Assembly (NCBI RefSeq): GCF_015291745.1
Contig: NZ_CP030059.1
Span: 62,001-126,000, forward strand
Source of the DNA: Bradyrhizobium sp. CCBAU 53351
GTDB taxonomy: Bacteria; Pseudomonadota; Alphaproteobacteria; Rhizobiales; Xanthobacteraceae
Reading direction: 5' to 3'
Length of the DNA: 64,000 nucleotides
A model generated the notes under the pieces. That model ran no database searches and was not told where the DNA came from. It was given only the letters and a program-made list of their open reading frames with translations. Positions 20,179-24,019 of the stretch are shown here, in pieces. How positions within the stretch are numbered: position 1 is the first letter of the stretch; every line of letters begins with the position of its first letter. Both the position numbers and the translations under genes were made by a program.

Positions 20179-20940
20179 ATGGATCGGCCGGGCGAAACCA
20201 CGCATTTTGGCTTCAGGGACGTGCCCCTCGGGGACAAGCAGACGCTGGTGAACGACGTGTTTCACAGCGTGGCGTCGCGCTATGATTTGATGAACGATTT
20301 GATGTCCGGCGGCCTGCACCGGGTCTGGAAGGACATCATGATCACGGCGCTGGATCCGCCCAGGAGCGATCGGCCGTTCGCCTTGCTCGACGTGGCCGGC
20401 GGCACCGGCGACATCTCGTTCCGCGCCGCCAAGGCCGCAGGTGCGGGCTTCCATGCCACCGTCTGCGACATCAACACCGACATGCTGGCGGTAGGCCGCG
20501 AGCGCGCGGCCAAGCGGCATCTCGAAGCCAAAGTCGATTTCGTCGAAGGCAATGCCGAAGCGCTCGGCTTCGCGGACCGCAGCTTCGACGCCTATACGAT
20601 CGCGTTCGGCATTCGCAACGTGCCCCGGATCGATCTGGCGCTGCACGAAGCCTATCGCGTGCTGAGGCCCGGCAGCCGCTTCCTCTGCCTTGAATTCTCC
20701 AGCGTCGAGATGCCCGGGCTCGATCGGCTTTATGACCTGTTCTCGTTCAAGGTGATCCCGCCGCTCGGCCGCATGATCACGGGCGATGCCGAGTCCTACC
20801 AATATCTCGTTGAATCGATCCGCAAGTTTCCGAAGCCGAACGCCTTCGCCGACATGATCCGCGAAGCCGGCTTTTCCCGCGTCAGCTGGCAGACATTGTC
20901 CGGCGGCATCGTCGCACTGCATTCGGGCTGGCGTTTGTGA
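20179..20940 (+). CDS. ubiE: demethylmenaquinone/2-octaprenyl-6-methoxy-benzoquinol methylase UbiE
   Basis: UbiE is the SAM-dependent C-methyltransferase of ubiquinone (and menaquinone) synthesis. The 253-residue product carries the SAM loop [16 protein letters not shown] (near residue 74), the acidic turn VCDINTDML, and the family signatures [17 protein letters not shown] and [20 protein letters not shown]. The start ATG 20179 follows GGAGTAGAGTA. Its stop overlaps the GTG start of ubiB by four bases, showing translational coupling within a ubiquinone operon. Confidence 0.95.
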
Positions 20941-22511
20941 TCTCTGCCTTCAACCACATTTCGCGCCTGATCCGCGCCGCGTTCGTCTTCGCGCGCGAGG
21001 GCGTGTTCGGCTCGGTCGATCCGAGCCTGGTGCCCCCGCCGGGACAGCTCGCGCTGAAGCTCGCACGCCTGGTCGAACGCCGCGGCACCAAGCACGGTCC
21101 CCGGATCGCTCGCGCGCTGACACGGATGGGCCCCGCCTATCTCAAGCTCGGACAGTTCCTGGCGACGCGCCCCGACGTCGTCGGCGTCATCATGGCCCGC
21201 GACCTCGAAAGCCTGCAGGATCGCCTGCCGCCGTTTCCGCAGGACGAAGCCGAGGCCGCGATCGCGACGTCGCTGGAGCGCCCGCTGAAGGACGTGTTCG
21301 TGAGCTTCGGGCCGGCCGTCGCAGCCGCCTCGATCGCGCAGGTGCATCGCGGCGAAGTCCTGCACGACCGGATCCGCAAATCGGTCGCGGTCAAGGTGCT
21401 CCGGCCGAACGTCGCCGCGCGTTTCCGCCGCGATCTCTCCGACTTCTTCTTCGTCGCACACAAGGCCGAGACCTACTCGGCGGAAGCGCGGCGGCTGCGC
21501 CTCATCGAAGTCATCAACACCATGTCGCGCTCGGTCGCCATGGAGATGGACCTGCGTCTCGAGGCAGCTGCGCTGTCGGAGATGGCGGAGAACACCCGCG
21601 ACGACCCCGATTTCCGCGTGCCTGCAGTCGACTGGGACCGCACCACGCACAACGTGCTGACGATGGAGTGGATCGACGGCATCGCGCTGAACGATCACAA
21701 GCGCCTGGAAGAGGCGCAGGTCGATTTGCCCGACCTTGGCCGCAAGGTGATCCAGAGCTTCCTGCGCCACGCGCTGCGCGACGGCTTCTTCCATGCCGAC
21801 ATGCATCCGGGCAATCTGTTCCTCGACGACGCCGGCCGTCTCGTCGCGGTCGATTTCGGCATCATGGGCCGGCTCGGCATGAAGGAGCGGCGCTTCCTCG
21901 CCGAAATCCTGCTCGGCTTCATCACCCGCGACTATCGCCGCGTCGCCGAGGTGCATTTCGAGGCGGGCTACGTGCCCGCGCATCACTCGGTCGAGAATTT
22001 CGCGCAAGCCATCCGCGCCATCGGCGAGCCGATCCACAATCGCACGGCGGAAGAGATCTCGATGGCGCGGCTCTTGACGCTGCTGCTCGAGGTCACCGGC
22101 CTGTTCGACATGACGACGCGGCCCGAGCTGATCCTGCTGCAGAAGACCATGGTCGTGGTCGAAGGCGTGGCGCGCGGCTTCGACCCCCGGCTCGACATCT
22201 GGAAGGTCGCCGACCCCGTGGTGCGCGAATGGATCGAGCGCAATCTCGGTCCGATCGGCCGGGTGCAGGGCGCGCTCGCCGGAACCGGCGACATCGCGCG
22301 GGTGCTGATGCGGCTGCCAGAGATCGCCGAGCGGTCGGTGAAGGTGCTCGAGCAACTCGAAACCATGACGCGGGAGGGCATCAGGCTGTCGCCGGAGAGC
22401 ATCGCCGCGATGGGACGGAGCGAAGGCCGCAAGAACCGCTGGCGCACCGTCGCGCTCTGGATCATCGCCGCGACCTTCATCGGAATCCTGATCGCCGTCC
22501 GGAATTTCTGA
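20937..22511 (+). CDS. ubiB: ubiquinone biosynthesis atypical kinase UbiB
   Basis: UbiB is an ADCK/ABC1-type atypical kinase/ATPase required for ubiquinone synthesis. The 524-residue product has the family KxGQ motif ([14 protein letters not shown]), the Ala-rich loop that replaces the kinase P-loop ([12 protein letters not shown]), the ion-binding sites [10 protein letters not shown] and VAVDFGIMG, and a C-terminal membrane helix ([17 protein letters not shown]). The start is GTG 20937, inside the ubiE stop. It supports lipid-bound ubiquinone intermediates at the membrane rather than being the hydroxylase of its old name. It ends 56 bases before coaBC. Confidence 0.95.
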
Positions 22512-22528
22512 TTGCACTGCAATCATGC

Positions 22529-22551
22529 GAATGATAGCATCGCTATCATTC
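22529..22551 (+). promoter_or_regulatory. perfect inverted repeat, putative FitA-like operator before coaBC
   Basis: Arms GAATGATAGC (22529-22538) and its exact complement (22542-22551) flank ATC. The site lies in the 56-base ubiB-coaBC gap, six bases before the ribosome-binding site GGAGG (22558-22562) of coaBC. It is AT-rich in a GC-rich region. The half-sites TGATAGCA and (C/T)GCTATCA resemble, from memory, the half-sites bound by the FitA antitoxin of Neisseria, though in the opposite order and closer together. Because the downstream protein starts with a FitA-like domain, self-binding is likely but not shown. An RNA hairpin is the alternative. Confidence 0.7.
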
Positions 22552-22567
22552 CGTGCTGGAGGGCGCC

Positions 22568-24019
22568 GTGGCAAGCCTCACCATCCGCAAGCTCGACGAA
22601 CACGTCAAAACCTATCTGCGGCTGCGCTCGGCCAAGAACCACAGGTCGGTCGAGGAAGAGGTCCGGGTCATCCTGCGGGAGCTGATCGAGGGCCGCGAGG
22701 AGCCGCTGACGCCGTTTTCGGCGCCGCCCGCCGCATCCACCGCCCCGACGCCGCAGCGCACCGGCGCGGTCGCAGAGGCCAGCGTCACCCTGATCATCGG
22801 CGGCGGCATCGCGGCCTACAAATCGCTCGACCTGATCCGCAGGCTGAAGGAGCGCCGCATCGAGGTTCGCTGCGTGCTGACCAAGGCGGCCCAGCAATTC
22901 GTCACGCCGCTGGCGGTGAGCGCGCTGTCGCATGAGCGCGTCTACACCGACCTGTTCGATCCCCAGAGCGAGTTCGACGCCGGGCATATCCGCCTCGCGC
23001 GCGACTGCGACCTCATCGTGGTGGCGCCGGCCACCGCCGATCTGATGGCGAAGATGGCGAACGGCCATGCCGACGATCTCGCCAGTGCCATCCTGCTCGC
23101 AACCAACCGCAAGGTGCTGCTGGCACCGGCGATGAATCCGCTGATGTGGAGCAATGCGGCGACACGCCGCAACGTCACGCAGCTTCAGCGCGACGGCGTC
23201 GTGCTGTGTGGACCGAATTCCGGCGAGATGGCGGAGGCGGGCGAGGCGGGTGTCGGCCGCATGTCGGAGGCGATCGAGATCGCCAATGCCGCCGAGCGCC
23301 TGCTGCGGCCTCCGATGCCAAAGCCGCTCGCCGGCAAGCGCGTGCTGATCACCGCAGGCCCCACGCACGAGCCAATCGATCCGGTGCGCTACATCGCCAA
23401 CCGCTCCTCCGGCAAGCAGGGCTTTGCCATTGCCGCGGCCGCTCAGGCCGCCGGTGCCGAGGTGATCCTGGTGAGCGGTCCGGTCGATCTCAGCGATCCC
23501 CCGGGCGTGACGGTAAAGCATGTCGAATCGGCCCGGCAGATGCTGGAGCAGGTGCAGGCCGCGCTGCCCGCCGACATCGCGATCTTCGCTGCCGCCGTCG
23601 CCGATTGGCGCGTCGCCAATGAAGGCGAGCAGAAGCTGAAGAAGACGTCCGCCGGCATGCCGCCGCTGCAGCTGGTCGAGAATCCCGACATCCTCGCCAC
23701 GATTTCAAAACTGACCGACAAGCGCCCGCCGCTGGTGATCGGCTTTGCCGCCGAGACCGAGCACCTCATCGACAACGCCAAGTCCAAGCTGGAGCGCAAG
23801 GGCTGCGACTGGATCGTCGCCAACGACGTCTCCCCCGCCACCGGCGTGATGGGCGGCGACCGCAACACCGTGCATCTGATCAGCCGCAAGAATGGCGAGA
23901 AGAACGGCGAGATTGCAGTTGATTCCTGGCCGGTGATGACCAAGGAACAGGTCGCCATCGAACTGGTCGCGCACATCGCAAAGAGCGCGACCGACACATC
24001 CCTGGAGTCGGCGCCTTGA
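22568..24019 (+). CDS. coaBC: CoaBC (phosphopantothenoylcysteine synthase/decarboxylase) with N-terminal FitA-like RHH domain
   Basis: CoaBC joins phosphopantothenate to cysteine (CoaB) and decarboxylates the product (CoaC) in coenzyme A synthesis. I start at GTG 22568, five bases after GGAGG, giving 483 residues. Residues 1-45 form a ribbon-helix-helix domain of FitA/VapB type ([28 protein letters not shown]). A Pro/Ala/Thr linker (46-71) leads to CoaC (72-250), with His140 in GHIRLAR and the PxMNxxMW motif at 187-194. The usual ACGE-type substrate-clamp Cys is absent: the segment reads [14 protein letters not shown]. CoaB (about 256-483) has [21 protein letters not shown]. The fusion is in one frame with no stop. 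No PIN toxin is present. Confidence 0.92.

Follow-up and report, generated by a model that had tools for sequence, protein, structure and literature searches.

The CoaBC protein of Bradyrhizobium sp. CCBAU 53351, like that of other Bradyrhizobium and of relatives with the same fusion, is most probably both an enzyme and the repressor of its own gene, with a ribbon-helix-helix (RHH) domain that stems from a FitA/VapB-type antitoxin and an operator retained from the same source. Autorepression is strongly implied by comparison of sequences, namely by the N-terminal domain of the protein, by an array of short sites upstream of coaBC and by the co-occurrence of both among relatives. The DNA analysed was a stretch of 64,000 nucleotides (contig NZ_CP030059.1, positions 62,001 to 126,000), hereafter the window, and the features of the locus are given below in window positions.

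20937 to 22511, plus strand: ubiB, the gene upstream of coaBC, taken from the ORF list; its TGA stop (22509 to 22511) provides the first three bases of palindrome 1
22509 to 22525, no strand: operator palindrome 1, TGATTGCA-C-TGCAATCA, two octamers (arms 22509 to 22516 and 22518 to 22525, complementary at 8 of 8 positions)
22512 to 22540, plus strand: possible core promoter TTGCAC-N17-TAGCAT, inside the operator, predicted from a weak consensus match
22526 to 22531, no strand: inter-palindrome gap of 6 bp, free in sequence and nearly fixed in length
22532 to 22548, no strand: operator palindrome 2, TGATAGCA-T-CGCTATCA, the 17 bp core of a larger repeat at 22529 to 22551
22558 to 22563, plus strand: ribosome-binding site GGAGGG, read from the sequence
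22568 to 24019, plus strand: coaBC, 483 aa, with a GTG start and a TGA stop at 24017 to 24019
22571 to 22681, plus strand: FitA-type RHH domain of CoaBC, residues 2-38, PF22513
22697 to 22777, plus strand: Pro/Ala/Thr-rich linker of CoaBC, residues 44-70, at the position of the toxin-binding tail in an antitoxin
22784 to 23269, plus strand: CoaC domain (flavoprotein decarboxylase), residues 73-234, PF02441
23327 to 23881, plus strand: CoaB domain (ligase), residues 254-438, PF04127
24016 to 24474, plus strand: dut, an ordinary neighbour that overlaps the coaBC stop by TTGA

To begin with the protein, CoaC and CoaB were found in one chain, as TIGR00521 (CoaBC family) matched residues 72-470 with 391 bits (cut-off 219.7), and PF22513 (FitA-like RHH) matched residues 2-38 of the same single ORF with an E-value of 3.4e-14 and 52.9 bits (gathering cut-off 27), in agreement with the in-frame fusion described in the initial annotation. 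The solved FitA chains 2h1o and 2bsq were weak matches in a single-sequence search (E-values of 0.44 and 0.52). With a profile built from 29 fused N-termini, the same two chains ranked first in the Protein Data Bank, at 3.6e-8 and 4.3e-8, ahead of the Mnt repressor (0.0023). Furthermore, dN/dS values in 87 Bradyrhizobium-type sequences were 0.17 for the RHH domain, 0.43 for the linker, 0.079 for CoaC and 0.077 for CoaB; the RHH codons are thus under purifying selection, weaker than that on the catalytic domains. The initial annotation had also presented the overlapping dut gene as part of a special regulatory coupling, a reading that did not hold, since dut lies downstream of 163 of 168 fused and of most unfused coaBC genes (48 of 61) and its linkage is therefore ordinary.

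A fused domain that still acts as an antitoxin, neutralising a PIN toxin coded elsewhere, is hardly credible. The genome does hold five PIN-domain matches, one of them with internal stops, but all lie away from coaBC, so that the absence of an adjacent PIN toxin gene noted at the outset was borne out. Moreover, the C-terminal tail of intact FitA proteins (as in L189, L192 and L215) is replaced in CoaBC, by eye on the sequence, by the fast-evolving, low-complexity linker, and no toxin-neutralising tail of the antitoxin type was recognized there by the same inspection.

Upstream of the gene, the initial annotation had reported a single perfect 10-base inverted repeat. The repeat itself, GAATGATAGC-ATC-GCTATCATTC (22529-22551), is real, with arms (22529-22538 and 22542-22551) complementary at 10 of 10 positions, but there are two palindromes and not one, the second being that at 22509-22525. 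Each of them can be read as a pair of octamers one base apart, giving four TGMTWKCA-like octamers upstream of coaBC. Three bases of palindrome 1 are constrained for another reason too, because they form the ubiB stop codon. For comparison between loci, an octamer-pair score was defined as the best match to TGMTWKCANTGMTWKCA within 150 nt upstream of the start, with a threshold of 13/16.

These sites are closely kept among near relatives. In a search of named genomes, the best 80 of 185 loci were used, 78 of them titled Bradyrhizobium; together with the locus of the window, all 81 had an octamer pair matching at 15 or 16 of 16 positions within 150 nt of the start. Six more loci of the genus were added to give the Bradyrhizobium-type set of 87, in which the gap between the palindromes measured 6 bp in 81 loci and 5 bp in the other six. 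For the 81 rows in the 6 bp register, the information content was 1.83 bits per column in palindrome 1 and 1.82 in palindrome 2 (1.75-1.97 across the octamers), as opposed to 0.62 in the gap; the flanks gave 0.91 over 30 bases on the left and 1.23 over 17 bases on the right. The palindrome arms are therefore conserved while the sequence of the gap drifts. One locus of the set, titled Frankia sp. RB7 (L037), is Bradyrhizobium-like, with 91% identity and a position inside that genus on the tree, and probably comes from a mislabelled or mixed assembly.

Throughout the 8.34 Mb of the genome, TGMTWGCANTGCNATCA with at most one mismatch was met only at these two palindromes. The looser octamer-pair pattern, also with at most one mismatch, was found at five places (four forward and four reverse strand matches), while its reversed control gave four and five strand matches, so no genome-wide enrichment of the bare pattern was detected against this control. 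The weight is consequently carried by conservation, as the bare pattern stands at control level. A wider regulon of octamer sites was rejected for the same five places, three of which lie outside coaBC. One of these three, a 15/16 octamer pair (L095 1501-1517, G000:C1:7093176) at chance level genome-wide, is located about 65 nt before a gene for a protein with helix-turn-helix and shikimate-kinase-like parts, which we take to be BoxR-like.

The co-occurrence of fusion and sites was evaluated in a total of 229 coaBC loci, 168 fused and 61 unfused (one further locus, L181, gave no match). In the family sample, 147 of 149 genomes had a match, and 83 fused genes were found in the stretches read (L001 and L099-L180); in G020, G055 and G147 the RHH part appeared on a broken or separate piece. 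The set includes 46 of the unfused family loci (L182-L227). Among 297 genomes of the order there are at least five further fusions (G401, G251, G370, G281 and G351), and these five were included along with 15 chosen unfused loci. An octamer pair of at least 13/16 within 150 nt was present in 163 of the 168 fused loci and in none of the 61 unfused, whether without (0/53) or with (0/8) a toxin-antitoxin-type gene before coaBC, and control stretches 450-600 nt upstream scored 12 at most. The association of RHH fusion and palindrome among relatives, which the initial annotation had proposed to look for, was thereby found. Of the five fused exceptions (L127, L133, L136, L143 and L162), four carry a site further upstream, at -156 to -291, and L136 reached 12/16 at best. 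In L133, L143 and L182, the upstream region is separated from the start codon by a palindromic repeat of the form GTGGATGGCCGGGACAAGCCCGGCCATGAC, which is probably an interspersed element; in L133 the operator is upstream of this repeat.

Since the octamer motif was chosen after inspection of the data, a matrix was trained on the 87 Bradyrhizobium-type loci and tested on the rest, where 77 of 81 other fusions scored above all 61 unfused loci and 81 control stretches, which meets the objection in part. Moreover, the above counts include many related genomes, as the supported branches of the tree yield four independent fused/unfused pairs. Across these, the site followed the fusion in an average of 3.9 pairs and ran against it in 0.0, with a sign-test P-value of 0.125, the best attainable with just four pairs.

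Regarding the arrangement of the sites, start-to-start spacings of octamers in the 81 fusions outside the Bradyrhizobium-type set had their main peak at 9 (116 pairs) and lesser ones at 18, 22-23, 13-14 (37 pairs) and 31-32, while the 61 unfused loci had two octamer pairs in all. The best pair in the 80 of these 81 fusions with a site was direct in 19, inverted in 18 and contained a self-palindromic or unclassed octamer in 43. Direct and inverted pairs being about equal, there is no conserved stem, which argues for protein sites rather than an RNA stem. The operator stretch does fold into two hairpins (-26.4 kcal/mol), as would a ubiB terminator or a leader structure of coaBC, but 17 of 200 shuffled sequences folded as well (z-score -1.37), no terminator-like site was found in the scan of this stretch of the window, and the pair is missing from every unfused locus although 43 of the 61 have ubiB upstream. 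The reading of the inverted repeat as an RNA hairpin or terminator is accordingly very unlikely and was rejected.

A protein bound at the sites would meet the putative promoter. The best sigma-70-like promoter overlapped the site in 62 of 76 fusions outside the Bradyrhizobium-type set (26 expected, and at most 35, under random placement) and in 83 of 87 loci within it, an overlap that may partly reflect the T- and A-rich octamers. A stricter scan of the plus strand of the operator stretch reported no promoter, TTGCAC-N17-TAGCAT included. The RpoD motifs of B. japonicum given in the available part of PMC4842269 (TTG-N16-18-TATA and GCTATA) fit several fused relatives, by eye, better than the promoter of the window itself. 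The main text of that start-site study contains no mention of coaBC, dfp or ubiB.

The octamers also occur beyond coaBC. Stand-alone FitA-type genes were sought in 16 chosen genomes, yielding 34 matches, 30 of them fetched; 11 were coaBC loci, one (L278) was missed by the profile and 18 were scored. Within 150 nt upstream, a score of 13/16 or more was reached by seven of the 18 and one of 12/16 or more by 11, three of the four scoring 12 being near-copies of one another; one gene of the set (L277) is below the Pfam cut-off. This links the octamer motif with the family of RHH proteins rather than with coaBC. In the genome of the window, the only FitA-type RHH match, with 150 of 224 first-look candidates scored, is CoaBC itself, which leaves one such protein and one operator region as a dedicated pair; if the sites are read by a FitA-type RHH protein, that protein is most likely CoaBC.

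Alternatively, the RHH domain could now only assemble the enzyme, as a dimer or dodecamer contact, with the palindromes being leftovers of an antitoxin operator or bound by something else. The RHH is a dimer fold and drives dimerisation of PutA, as stated in the available part of PMC5293562. However, leftover sites would drift, and these octamers have been kept far above the gap between them; ubiB was found upstream in 157 of the 168 fused loci, and the other 11 still score at least 13/16; and no other FitA-type RHH match exists among the scored candidates to use the sites. In addition, the RHH strand residues A2, L4, T5, I6 and R7 are invariant in 87 of 87 Bradyrhizobium-type sequences, and such residues face DNA in RHH proteins, as described for CcdA in the part of PMC3920265 available. 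A role limited to assembly thus appears quite improbable, and repression through the domain is the preferred reading.

The origin of the domain is suggested by what lies between ubiB and coaBC in unfused relatives. A FitA-type RHH ORF precedes coaBC in seven of the 61 unfused loci (L189, L192, L215, L218, L225, L239 and L240), and a FitB-type PIN ORF matching nearly the whole profile in six (L189, L215, L218, L225, L239 and L247), five of which have the RHH antitoxin. Three of these six ORFs had themselves gone into the PIN profile. The PIN assignments draw on this profile of our own, on NCBIfam matches below cut-off and, for the toxins of L189, L239, L215 and L240, on Pfam, which agrees. The octamer pair before fitA reached 15 in L225 and, at two places, in L189, as well as 14 in L240 and 13 in L239, whereas 12/16 in L192, L215 and L218 is near chance for a long stretch. 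In L189, as in fusions, a TATAGT box comes after the pair, and in L189 and L239 the stop of the toxin gene overlaps the coaBC start, so that in these two loci coaBC is probably in the operon of the antitoxin. The captured antitoxin domain put forward in the initial annotation thus gains support from relatives with a fitA-type gene, mostly accompanied by a PIN toxin gene, at this very place.

Three unfused loci showed other states. In L192 (G009), only the first and last residues of a PIN gene are left behind the FitA-type antitoxin gene, apparently a decay stage. In L247 (G433), the antitoxin, next to a full-length PIN ORF, gives no RHH match and has, by eye, the same kind of tail as other FitA neighbours; no octamer sites were found upstream, and in this one case loss of the reader accompanies loss of the site. 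Finally, in L240 (G216), coaBC is preceded by two FitA-type antitoxin ORFs in tandem, together with a PIN toxin that belongs to another class. Such modules seem to have landed repeatedly in the gap between ubiB and coaBC.

On the tree of the CoaBC core (159 rows, omitting 70 near-copies of named loci), the fused state changes eight times, four of which are forced by supported branches, and a single clade of fused rows was rejected (p-AU 1.3e-53, quick tree). Family f24, which seems to include Mesorhizobium if one goes by the names of close proteins (P0125 and P0154), has fused and module-bearing genomes side by side. In particular, the RHH of the L237 fusion shares 68% identity with the antitoxin of L240, a near relative, as against 45-50% with its fused neighbours in the clade, and its linker resembles a VapB tail by eye. 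Given this likeness and the scatter of the fused rows, at least two captures are likely, and the remaining changes between states may partly be losses. A fusion ancestral in the order and lost many times, with the FitAB modules as independent insertions into a hot spot, would agree with the eight changes, as the four forced ones could be losses. It is less easily reconciled with L237, whose RHH and linker resemble an antitoxin more than the other fusions of its clade, or with the class sample, where 85 of 115 genomes had some match (that of the window included) and, among the 84 others, several with partial matches, no CoaBC match reached the RHH part; some of these genomes match only by a separate RHH gene. 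We regard an ancestral fusion as rather unlikely, and it concerns the history and not the mechanism. From the comparison, the fusion probably arose, and likely more than once, out of FitAB-type modules located at this junction.

Taken together, a fitA-fitB-type module with its operator would have stood between ubiB and coaBC, in the order seen in living relatives, the direction of change being our reading, and coaBC would probably have been transcribed from the promoter that the antitoxin controlled. Both the toxin gene and the antitoxin tail would then have been lost and the RHH joined to coaBC, with the operator kept, as comparison of the loci suggests. In the resulting protein, RHH dimers brought together by the oligomeric enzyme would bind the TGMTWKCA octamer array, which overlaps the predicted promoter and is spaced mostly at 9 or 13-14 bp, and plentiful CoaBC would keep RNA polymerase off its own promoter. 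According to the available part of PMC7794376, CoaBC of mycobacteria assembles as a dodecamer and is under the control of CoA thioesters; a fused enzyme of this form would carry twelve RHH domains, so several octamers could be occupied at once. The product level could in principle tune octamer occupancy, and binding by RHH-CoaBC might respond to CoA, acyl-CoA, substrate or flavin state, a CoA-linked signal being a guess. On balance, we lean towards the broadest form of this account, in which toxin-antitoxin modules at a single chromosomal junction would on two or more occasions have become devices for metabolic feedback, by landing of a FitAB-type module, promoter takeover, toxin loss and RHH fusion, with RHH dimers reading the octamer array and coaBC set by the level of the enzyme, perhaps in its CoA-bound state.

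As coaBC is essential in bacteria, the loci would offer a visible path, with living intermediates, from a toxin-antitoxin module to the regulator of a housekeeping gene. They also lead to the prediction that bacteria of soil and root nodules autoregulate CoA synthesis at the level of transcription, and RHH-CoaBC with its octamer array is a directly testable protein-operator pair.

Among known systems, CoaBC of M. smegmatis (6TGV) has the CoaC and CoaB domains in common (E-value of 5.2e-74) but is without the N-terminal RHH, its match starting at residue 73 of the window protein. Enzyme and transcriptional repressor are combined in one chain for a cofactor pathway in BirA and NadR, as proposed here for CoaBC; however, these use a helix-turn-helix instead of an RHH and are not antitoxin-derived. 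What FitAB and VapBC modules share with RHH-CoaBC is a PF22513-type RHH and, immediately upstream of the gene, an octamer-pair site, FitA being bound to its operator through the RHH fold (available part of PMC3920265). A repeated-octamer operator is found at coaBC, while a PIN gene adjoins the gene only in some relatives. In contrast to those modules, CoaBC has neither a toxin nor a toxin-binding tail, its RHH sits in a biosynthetic enzyme, and the octamers of the fusions are mostly 9 or 13-14 bp apart.

The closest likeness is to the trifunctional PutA of E. coli and Salmonella, in which an N-terminal RHH is likewise fused to a flavoenzyme; it represses its own regulon, and its RHH part can be grafted onto a PutA lacking one (PMC5293562, in the part available), while FMN is bound in CoaC (PMC7794376, likewise in part). 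An operator at the gene's own promoter, as in PutA, is indicated for CoaBC by sequence and co-occurrence, the promoter overlap being the weaker element. The two differ in pathway and catalytic domains, the RHH of CoaBC belongs to the FitA antitoxin family, relatives of CoaBC still show the antitoxin-toxin operon, and the membrane switching of PutA has no known counterpart in CoaBC. In the open-access literature searched, a scope outside which most subscription papers fall, no paper on RHH-CoaBC was found, the two that came up looking unrelated. Nevertheless, the domain order is visible in databases: 1687 protein clusters in this length range match the N-terminal 70 residues (E-value 1e-3), and all of the best 120 of these 1687 have PF22513 together with PF02441. 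The kind of enzyme that represses its own gene through an RHH is known. By its sequence, CoaBC would be placed as a PutA-like enzyme-repressor with an antitoxin-derived DNA-binding part, and what is new, as far as found, is the enzyme concerned, the antitoxin as source and the intermediates that can still be seen.
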